DNA of 59,376 nt from Planctomycetota bacterium (GTDB lineage: Bacteria > Planctomycetota > Planctomycetia > Gemmatales > Gemmataceae), in contig JACPPF010000172.1 of the NCBI GenBank assembly GCA_016191165.1, forward strand, positions 1 to 59,376, written 5' to 3'. The position numbers were made by a program, and so were the translations under genes. Every line of letters begins with the position of its first letter. Position 1 is the first letter of the stretch. Of this stretch, positions 53,847-55,019 are shown piece by piece. The notes under the pieces are model-generated. The model did no database searches and had not been told where the DNA came from. It saw only the letters and a list, made by a program, of their open reading frames with translations.

Positions 53847-53926
53847 TGGTCGAGGTGGGAGTCGAACCCACAGACAATCACCATCCTCTCAAGATGGCCG
53901 CTTTACCGGTATTTGCGTACTCGACC
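53847..53926 (-). tRNA. tRNA-Leu(GAG) with short (9-nt) variable arm
   Basis: An 80-nt cloverleaf: acceptor GGTCGAG/CTCGACC with discriminator A, D-stem CGC/GCG around a 13-nt loop, anticodon stem CCATC/GATGG with loop TTGAGAG (anticodon GAG), variable region TGATTGTCT, and T-stem GTGGG/CCCAC with TTCGACT. Normal bacterial Leu tRNAs have a 12-15-nt variable arm with its own stem. CCA is not encoded. Confidence 0.82.
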
Positions 53927-53942
53927 GCCCTTGGGACCCCTT

Positions 53943-54016
53943 TAGCACGGGTGGGATTCGAACCCACACAAACCAAGGTTTGAGCTTGGCCGCTCTGCCG
54001 GTTGGCGTACCGTGCC
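53943..54016 (-). tRNA. tRNA with Leu anticodon CAA but a 5-nt variable loop
   Basis: A 74-nt cloverleaf: acceptor GGCACGG/CCGTGCT (G1-T72 wobble) with discriminator A, D-arm CGC CAACCGGCAGA GCG (Leu-like), anticodon stem CCAAG/CTTGG with loop CTCAAAC (anticodon CAA), variable TTTGT, T-stem GTGGG/CCCAC. The class II long arm expected for Leu is absent. Confidence 0.82.
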
Positions 54017-54038
54017 GAATCGCTGTTTGCGAAAATCG

Positions 54039-54115
54039 GGTAGTGTCTCAGTTTGATGGTAGACCTCACGCTCCGCGTGAGGAATTCCATGCGCCGAAGC
54101 AAAGTGAGACACCAC
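54039..54115. mobile_element. 77-bp miniature inverted-repeat element within the tRNA array
   Basis: Outer arms GGTAGTGTCTCA and TGAGACACCAC are inverted, with an inner perfect hairpin CCTCACGC/GCGTGAGG (54064-54082). The element is flanked by identical 9-bp direct repeats CGAAAATCG (54030-54038 and 54116-54124), as expected for a target-site duplication. No coding capacity. Confidence 0.75.
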
Positions 54116-54169
54116 CGAAAATCGCGCTCGCGCGGCGCCATGCGAGCGCAAAGCCGCAAACGGACGCAG

Positions 54170-54244
54170 CGTCCCCGGCGGGATTTGAACCCGCGACCTT
54201 CTCCGTGACAGGGAGACGAGCACTCCGGGCTGCTCCACGAGGAC
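54170..54244 (-). tRNA. tRNA-Asp(GTC)
   Basis: A 75-nt canonical cloverleaf: acceptor GTCCTCG/CGGGGAC with discriminator G, D-stem GAGC/GCTC, anticodon stem TCTCC/GGAGA with loop CTGTCAC (anticodon GTC), variable AGGTC, T-stem GCGGG/CCCGC with TTCAAAT. Confidence 0.92.
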
Positions 54245-54266
54245 TGGAAGAATTCCCTGGCAACAG

Positions 54267-54340
54267 TGCCTGGAGTGGGATTCGAACTCACATCCGCTCG
54301 GGTTTAAGCCGAGCCGCTCTACCGGTTGGCGCATCCAGGC
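54267..54340 (-). tRNA. tRNA with Leu anticodon TAA but a 5-nt variable loop
   Basis: A 74-nt cloverleaf: acceptor GCCTGGA/TCCAGGC with discriminator A, D-arm CGC CAACCGGTAGA GCG, anticodon stem CTCGG/CCGAG with loop CTTAAAC (anticodon TAA), variable CGGAT, and T-stem GTGAG/CCCAC with one A-C mismatch. Class I shape with a Leu anticodon. Confidence 0.82.
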
Positions 54341-54372
54341 CGGCGCGCCGGTCCCGAAATGGGGCCGGAGAT

Positions 54373-54443
54373 ATCCGAGGGCGGGAATCGAATCGGCGTC
54401 TCCTGGGTCAAAGCCAGGCGTGTTGCCATTACACCACTCCGGA
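54373..54443 (-). tRNA. degenerate tRNA-Gln(TTG)
   Basis: A 71-nt fold: acceptor TCCGGAG/CCTCGGA with one A-C mismatch, discriminator T (Gln normally G), D-stem GTGT/ACAC, perfect anticodon stem CCTGG/CCAGG with loop CTTTGAC (anticodon TTG), but a weak T-stem (GCCGA/CCCGC, two mismatches). It could be a decaying or specialised tRNA. Confidence 0.7.
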
Positions 54444-54447
54444 AACA

Positions 54448-54513
54448 GGGGTTAGGGGTTAGGGGTCAGGGGTCAGGGGTTAGGGGTTGGCAACTATCCA
54501 CTATCCACTATCC
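54448..54513. repeat. telomere-like G-tract repeats plus ACTATCC triplet between tRNA genes
   Basis: Seven-base units GGGGTTA / GGGGTCA are repeated six times (54448-54490), immediately followed by three units of ACTATCC (54493-54513). Six G4 tracts spaced by 3 bases could form a G-quadruplex on the plus strand, that is, on the non-template side of the leftward tRNA transcript. Confidence 0.85.
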
Positions 54514-54520
54514 ACTCGAT

Positions 54521-54592
54521 TGGGATCGGAGGGAGTCGAACCCTCACCCCCTGATTAAAAGTCAGGTCCGCTGCCATTACGATCACGATCCC
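54521..54592 (-). tRNA. tRNA-Lys(TTT)
   Basis: A 72-nt fold: acceptor GGGATCG/CGATCCC with discriminator A, a short D-stem (TCG/CGG), anticodon stem CCTGA/TCAGG with loop CTTTTAA (anticodon TTT), variable GGGT and T-stem GAGGG/CCCTC with TTCGACT. Confidence 0.87.
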
Positions 54593-54651
54593 GACAACGC
54601 TTGCATTTCACGCCCTCGCGGCAGTTTGCAAGCGCTGAACGCAAATGGCAG

Positions 54652-54724
54652 TGGCTCGTACGGGAATCGAACCCGTCTCTGCTGTGTGAAAAACAGCGAT
54701 CCTCCGCCAATAGACGAACGAGCC
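54652..54724 (-). tRNA. tRNA-Glu(TTC)
   Basis: A 73-nt fold: acceptor GGCTCGT/ACGAGCC with discriminator A, a Glu-like D-arm starting TCGTCTATTGGCGGAGGAT, anticodon stem GCTGT/ACAGC with loop TTTTCAC (anticodon TTC) and T-stem ACGGG/CCCGT with TTCGATT. It is the first gene of the array in transcription direction. Confidence 0.9.
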
Positions 54725-54747
54725 AAAAAAAAAACGGCCAGGCGCCG
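54725..54747 (-). terminator. possible terminator between ribBA and the tRNA array
   Basis: On the minus strand a weak CGGC/GCCG stem (within GCGGCGCCTGGCCG) is followed by ten T residues (54725-54734), just before tRNA-Glu. It would separate ribBA transcripts from the array. The rest of 54748-55019 holds a further inverted pair (GACACCTG / CAGGTGTC, 54753-54796) and no gene. Confidence 0.4.
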
Positions 54748-55019
54748 CAATCGACACCTGGTCCGTTTCTGGACCGCCGCTTGGTCAGCAGGTGTCATCG
54801 CCAGCGCGGATCGGGTTTCCGCACCACGCGCGGCAATTCGAGCCGCTCGGGTTGCAAACGTTCAGGAGTTAATGCGAGGAAGTTCATGGTTTTTTCTTTG
54901 GAAATCGAGGTCGCCTGTTTCAGACGTAGAAGTGAGCCGTCAATTGCGCGCGAGGTTCGCGGTTTTTTTCAAAAACCCAAAAACCCAGGAGTGCACGCAC
55001 AGAACCCCCGGGATCGAAC

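Follow-up and report, generated by a model that had tools for sequence, protein, structure and literature searches.

tRNA genes of the cluster

How can a planctomycete use three tRNA genes that carry leucine anticodons but lack the long variable arm of class II tRNAs, and what controls the dense cluster in which they lie? The cluster is part of the window, the 59,376-nt stretch of DNA considered here (contig JACPPF010000172.1). ARAGORN finds exactly seven tRNA genes between 53846/7 and 54724, all on the reverse strand, and Rfam agrees, confirming the expected seven leftward genes in fewer than 900 bases (Table 1). The seven genes occupy 878 nt on one strand; relatives of the array hold up to 33 tRNAs. 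The original prediction named low covariance scores together with a lack of expression as the mark of pseudogenes. All seven genes pass the gathering score of the Rfam tRNA model (RF00005) with 47–61 bits, and they are not random pseudogenes.

The window copy of the array is slightly eroded, as tRNA-Leu(TAA) has one stem mismatch and tRNA-Gln(TTG) has three. Further pieces lie elsewhere in the same genome, namely five tRNAs (Gln-Phe-Gly-Met-like-Ala) at C26:2789-3346 and a short-arm Leu CAG at C175:45569. The mismatches, the split over three contigs and a dispersed repeat inserted between genes are what a decaying phage or plasmid relic with functionless tRNA pseudogenes would look like. However, 5/7 window genes and 11/13 array tRNAs genome-wide have no mismatch in the three scored stems; further evidence on both sides comes from the identity elements and upstream regions below.

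The spacers have features of their own. The dispersed repeat (54031-54118) lies between tRNA-Leu(CAA) and tRNA-Asp, has inverted ends (gtagtgtctcagtttgatgg...gaggaattcc...tgagacaccacc) and occurs in seven more copies elsewhere in the genome at 76–92% identity. A GC-rich repeat, gcgctcgcgcggcgccatgcgagcgcaaagccgc, at ~54122-54163 has many dispersed copies in all congeneric genomes. The spacer between tRNA-Gln and tRNA-Lys (54446-54515) is of low complexity, with GGGGTTAGGGGTCAGGGG and CACTATCCACTATCC repeats.

Table 1. Features of the tRNA cluster and its upstream region in the window
Feature	Position	Strand	Remarks
tRNA-Leu(GAG), 9-nt variable region	53847..53926	(-)	acceptor, anticodon and T stems without mismatch; A73, U48
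tRNA-Leu(CAA), 5-nt variable region	53943..54016	(-)	ARAGORN, Rfam
tRNA-Asp(GTC), array type	54170..54244	(-)	ARAGORN, Rfam
tRNA-Leu(TAA), 5-nt variable region	54267..54340	(-)	one T-stem mismatch (A.C)
tRNA-Gln(TTG), eroded	54373..54443	(-)	three stem mismatches
tRNA-Lys(TTT), array type	54521..54592	(-)	ARAGORN, Rfam
tRNA-Glu(TTC), array type, first array gene	54652..54724	(-)	ARAGORN, Rfam
Intrinsic terminator, GACCAGGTGTCG-ATTG-CGGCGCCTGGCC + T10	54725..54763	(-)	abuts tRNA-Glu; z -4.66 for segment
Candidate antiterminator, TGACACCTG (stop-codon region) pairing with CAGGTGTC(G) of terminator 5' arm	54753..54797	(-)	
Leader ORF, 30 codons, MNFLALTPERLQPERLELPRVVRKPDPRWR then stop	54795..54887	(-)	31-codon counterpart in congener G002
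GCGAACC, candidate -35 of ECF-type promoter	54954..54960	(-)	without canonical CGTC -10 at usual spacing

Variable arm and leucine identity

The variable region, counted from position 44 to the T stem, is 5 nt in tRNA-Leu(CAA) (TTTGT), 5 nt in tRNA-Leu(TAA) (CGGAT) and 9 nt in tRNA-Leu(GAG) (TGATTGTCT), the same lengths as first read from the sequence. None of the three has the stem-forming variable arm of more than 10 nt that marks class II. The Leu-like D-arm and discriminator A ascribed to them are real, with A73, A14, A15:U48, G18G19 and A20a present in all three. The loss of the arm is a general feature of the array Leu tRNAs. A short variable region is found in 140/154 array Leu tRNAs, a count that shifts slightly with the de-duplication rule, and in 0/44 canonical ones. 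Some loci were picked via the short-arm Leu pattern itself; with pattern-matching genes excluded there are 117 short versus 14 long array Leu tRNAs, all 50 cyanobacterial ones included. In the same arrays the long arm is kept by all 70 Ser tRNAs and by 25/27 Tyr tRNAs.

The identity elements are retained in the short-arm Leu tRNAs, with A73 in 132/134, A15:U48 in 131/134 (98%) and A20a in 109 of the 132 scored. Identity elements and anticodons of array tRNAs are conserved across phyla, which argues against a relic. The acceptor, anticodon and T stems are 98.3% paired, with changes on both sides at 16/17 pairs, and stem covariation is 0.985 compared with 0.243 after shuffling, values to be read with the preference of ARAGORN detection for paired stems. 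A C in place of U at position 33 is seen in ~7% of array tRNAs, including many array Leu(GAG) from several loci, and in 1/81 canonical tRNAs sampled.

The LeuRS of E. coli depends on A73, A15-U48, G18G19 and A20a and has no need of the long arm, while the size of the arm is the major identity element of tRNA-Ser (PMC9976931). Since A73 and A15:U48 are retained, an ordinary LeuRS should charge the short-arm Leu tRNAs. The simplest reading of these sequences is relaxed selection on an arm unused by LeuRS, while leucine identity is retained. The original prediction had raised other options: charging by an unusual route, being misread by another synthetase with codon ambiguity, or a non-translational role. 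Their class I shape, unlike that of all sampled canonical Leu tRNAs, would agree with a synthetase other than LeuRS. We regard such charging, or a role outside translation, as very improbable. A73 and A15:U48 are almost always kept, as in canonical Leu tRNAs, the arm is dispensable for LeuRS (PMC9976931), and the arrays span all amino acids, most of their tRNAs keeping the expected discriminator bases. A second LeuRS as a dedicated partner was also considered and rejected: a single LeuRS is present in every LeuRS-containing genome examined. None of the three options finds support, and the short-arm Leu tRNAs do not represent an anomaly of the genetic code.

Redundancy with canonical leucine tRNAs

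Canonical Leu tRNAs with anticodons TAG, CAG and GAG lie on other contigs of the same bin and have normal class II arms. The search for class II Leu tRNAs with the anticodons of the short-arm genes thus succeeds for GAG, whereas for CAA and TAA it finds no canonical gene in the window's bin, only in its relatives. The bin has an estimated completeness of 95%, yet LeuRS is absent from it, and initiator Met and Asn tRNAs are absent among the tRNAs found. Because these are missing too and the relatives have the canonical Leu tRNAs, the absence of canonical CAA and TAA is a gap in the bin. Congeners contain sequences matching canonical CAA and TAA tRNAs, and the full set of five canonical class II Leu tRNAs is present in each of three array-bearing genomes, complete or nearly so, that belong to three families. 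The earlier argument that a genome with no other UUA/UUG readers would make the array Leu tRNAs essential is confounded by this gap, and the role of essential UUA/UUG readers is rejected, as congeners and complete relatives carry canonical CAA and TAA.

The window Leu tRNAs are more similar to array tRNAs than to canonical ones, with 79–92% identity to array Leu and 65–72% to canonical planctomycete Leu. The window tRNA-Leu(CAA) shares 92% identity with array Leu(CAA) of another genus and only 67% with its own canonical Leu.

Distribution of the array family

By sequence, the window locus is a fragment of the known tRNA array or L-array family, a redundant, divergent and mobile tRNA set. A search of relatives with array DNA finds up to ~23 divergent tRNAs in complete chromosomes from several families of the class. 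Matches to the short-arm Leu pattern occur in Planctomycetota, many cyanobacteria, a Mycobacterium, an Elusimicrobia bin and viral contigs, and the arrays at these loci contain up to 33 tRNAs. Pattern matches in Halovivax and Gemmiger were rejected as chance, with no tRNA at those sites. Homologous sets are carried on Nostoc and M. chimaera plasmids and in Gordonia phage Sixama, and the window tRNA-Asp is 91% identical over 58 nt to tRNA-Asp of Enterococcus phages. The existence of phage relatives also fits a relic. We recognised no mobile gene next to the window copy, and no conserved flanking protein gene was found beyond same-genus neighbours and generic families.

Leader ORF, terminator and candidate antiterminator

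Upstream of tRNA-Glu, the window contains a short ORF, an intrinsic terminator and a segment around the ORF stop codon that can pair with the 5' arm of the terminator. The same order of short ORF, stop codon, terminator and tRNA array recurs across the class in ~33 array leaders (26 distinct), the window included. The distance from the stop codon to the terminator stem is 27–39 nt in 32/35 ORF-containing leaders. In congener G002 the leader-terminator elements are kept despite diverged spacers, which speaks against a decaying relic. The terminator scan calls no terminator in 21/60 array upstream regions, although a terminator is in fact present in a few of these, and some end at a contig edge or have a missed first tRNA. 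The exact hairpin CCGGTGTC-N3-8-GACACCGG is found in 44 of 297 genomes of the class. Among 30 fetched hairpins, the 12 that run into a T-rich tail on the listed strand all stand in front of tRNA arrays, three adjoin array tRNAs on the other strand, and 15 are without any tRNA or T-rich tail and look like chance sites. No Rfam match of note and no T-box was found in the leader.

Two alternative structures are predicted for the leader RNA. The window RNA up to the terminator 5' arm takes the antiterminator fold at -18.3 kcal/mol, and the longer RNA takes the terminator fold at -35.4 kcal/mol (z -4.66). These mutually exclusive predicted structures are conserved. In 24/26 leaders the cut-off RNA is predicted to form the antiterminator (12.6% with shuffled upstream sequence), and in 22/26 the full RNA is predicted to form the terminator. 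In 23–26 of the 26 non-redundant leaders, the stop codon and the three bases after it can pair with the terminator arm; about half of the leaders were found via the terminator motif itself. Changes of the stop codon from TGA to TAA are matched by changes from GTGTC to GTGTT in the terminator arm. Outside this conserved antiterminator core, covariation is modest; with the ORF of each leader chosen by best complementarity, the paired fraction over 15 positions is 0.710, compared with a shuffled mean of 0.665 (1/2000 shuffles reach the observed value) and 0.32–0.48 in slid registers.

The leader ORF is probably translated, judging from its position, length, and start and stop codons and not from protein conservation. 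The leader peptides evolve fast and are poorly conserved, with more non-synonymous than synonymous changes. One could regard the ORF and terminator as a small gene with no relation to the array that ends before it by coincidence, since each leader ORF ends ahead of an ordinary-looking intrinsic terminator. We find this quite unlikely. The terminator abuts the first tRNA with a gap of 0 nt in the window and 8–9 nt in two other arrays, so that a separate promoter would not fit in between; among the fetched hairpins, those with a T-rich tail are confined to arrays; and complementarity to the stop region recurs across the class. In an Elusimicrobia bin (locus L159), the first array tRNA directly follows a terminator-like hairpin, CCCGCCTAAGCAGTAAGATAGGCGGG-T6, with which an upstream TTAGGC.CGGGTT could pair, possibly as a similar switch outside planctomycetes.

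Promoter-like motif

A promoter-like motif often heads this layout. The motif [GT][CTG]GAAC[CT]-N13-18-CGTC, mostly with N15-16, is found upstream of 25/60 arrays in the sense orientation and of 1/60 in the antisense orientation, with 0.6 expected from shuffles. It resembles ECF-sigma promoters, which have a GAAC-type -35 and a CGTC -10 at fixed spacing. The window array has a candidate -35 element and no canonical -10, which again would suit a relic. Against this, the exact motif is present ~50 nt upstream of two of the three clusters of this genome, those on C26 and C175; these two have the motif but no leader. With the intact stems, the conserved identity elements and the leader kept in the congener, we judge it unlikely that the array is a functionless relic.

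Genome-wide, most matches to the motif fall within coding sequence and appear to have arisen by chance. A few matches of the form GCGAACC-N15-18-CGTC precede genes that were named by eye: one is 113 nt upstream of MetRS (G000:C58:10156, L284), one 150 nt upstream of RpoC (G000 C38:38968, L274) and one 48 nt upstream of an EF-Ts reading frame (G000 C30:49526, L268). They suggest a shared translation and transcription regulon, for which a second look in other genomes gave a weak result.

Proposed mechanism

We consider it likely that the locus is a partly eroded copy of a horizontally spreading array, whose Leu tRNAs have lost the arm and are leucylated by LeuRS, and whose expression is controlled by the leader attenuator. 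The loss of the class II arm would follow from its being dispensable for bacterial LeuRS, and the short-arm tRNAs, charged by the single host LeuRS, would read Leu codons. Transcription would begin upstream of the short leader ORF. Ribosomes that translate the leader as far as its stop codon would cover the TGACACC segment; the terminator would then form and the array would be off. When leader translation fails, the TGACACC segment would pair with the 5' arm of the terminator and block it, and RNA polymerase would read through into the tRNA genes. We infer from these elements a ribosome-mediated attenuation that turns the array on when leader translation fails, so that translational stress would induce it. 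We also lean towards the wider view that planctomycete arrays are an inducible second tRNA set, governed by a ribosome-sensing attenuator and a class-wide ECF-like promoter, where cyanobacteria use a repressor.

Another possible function, compatible with this mechanism, is anti-defence, in which the arrays replace host tRNAs that are lost to anticodon nuclease cleavage in the course of phage infection or conflict. This role is already proposed for mycobacterial arrays (PMC12803027), phage relatives exist, and a switch that senses failing translation would fire upon host tRNA cleavage too. However, the conserved flanking clusters are generic families or congeneric neighbours, with no obvious linked nuclease or defence gene among them, and we regard this function as possible but less likely than not.

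Retention of the arm solely for those synthetases that depend on it (Ser and, for the most part, Tyr) would explain why arm-less Leu tRNAs recur in bacteria and phages. The leader suggests how a failure of translation could itself switch on a chromosomal backup set of tRNAs, and the purpose of tRNA arrays becomes directly testable in culturable planctomycetes.

Comparison with known systems

A spare mobile tRNA set is already known from cyanobacteria, mycobacteria and phages, and a short-arm cluster Leu tRNA is reported from mycobacteria. A limited literature search gave no description of attenuation of tRNA arrays, and the leader switch ahead of the planctomycete arrays looks new. Ribosome-mediated transcription attenuators include the trp and his leaders and the whiB7 uORF. 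Like these, the planctomycete leader has a short ORF, a terminator and a mutually exclusive antiterminator that involves the end of the ORF. Unlike them, its target is a tRNA array and no run of codons for a single amino acid was noticed; the leader would therefore sense the general arrival of ribosomes at the stop codon.

The tRNA array units and clusters of mycobacteria are horizontally acquired, like the window family. M. mucogenicum/phocaicum is reported to have a cluster tRNA-Leu(TAG) with a short variable loop, and some cluster tRNAs are expressed (PMC6582537). Mycobacterial arrays differ in having an HNH endonuclease within the array, and a leader attenuator is not described for them. 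The cluster of Gordonia phage Sixama is similar to the arrays in its near-complete tRNA set with Leu TAG, TAA and CAA genes of 74–76 nt, but it lies in a phage genome and a leader of the planctomycete type is not seen there.

The L-array (trn operon) of Anabaena sp. PCC 7120, with 26 tRNA genes on plasmid delta, is likewise dense, redundant and divergent, and related cyanobacterial arrays have short-arm Leu tRNAs as in the window; the array of the window is smaller and fragmented. The Anabaena array is silent under normal growth, is induced by antibiotics that target translation, and is repressed by TrcR at TGTAGTAT (PMC10272220). As a positive control for reading upstream regions, we find this TrcR site upstream of 7/13 cyanobacterial arrays. 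In contrast to TrcR repression in Anabaena, the planctomycete arrays carry the ECF-like motif and the attenuator-like leader.
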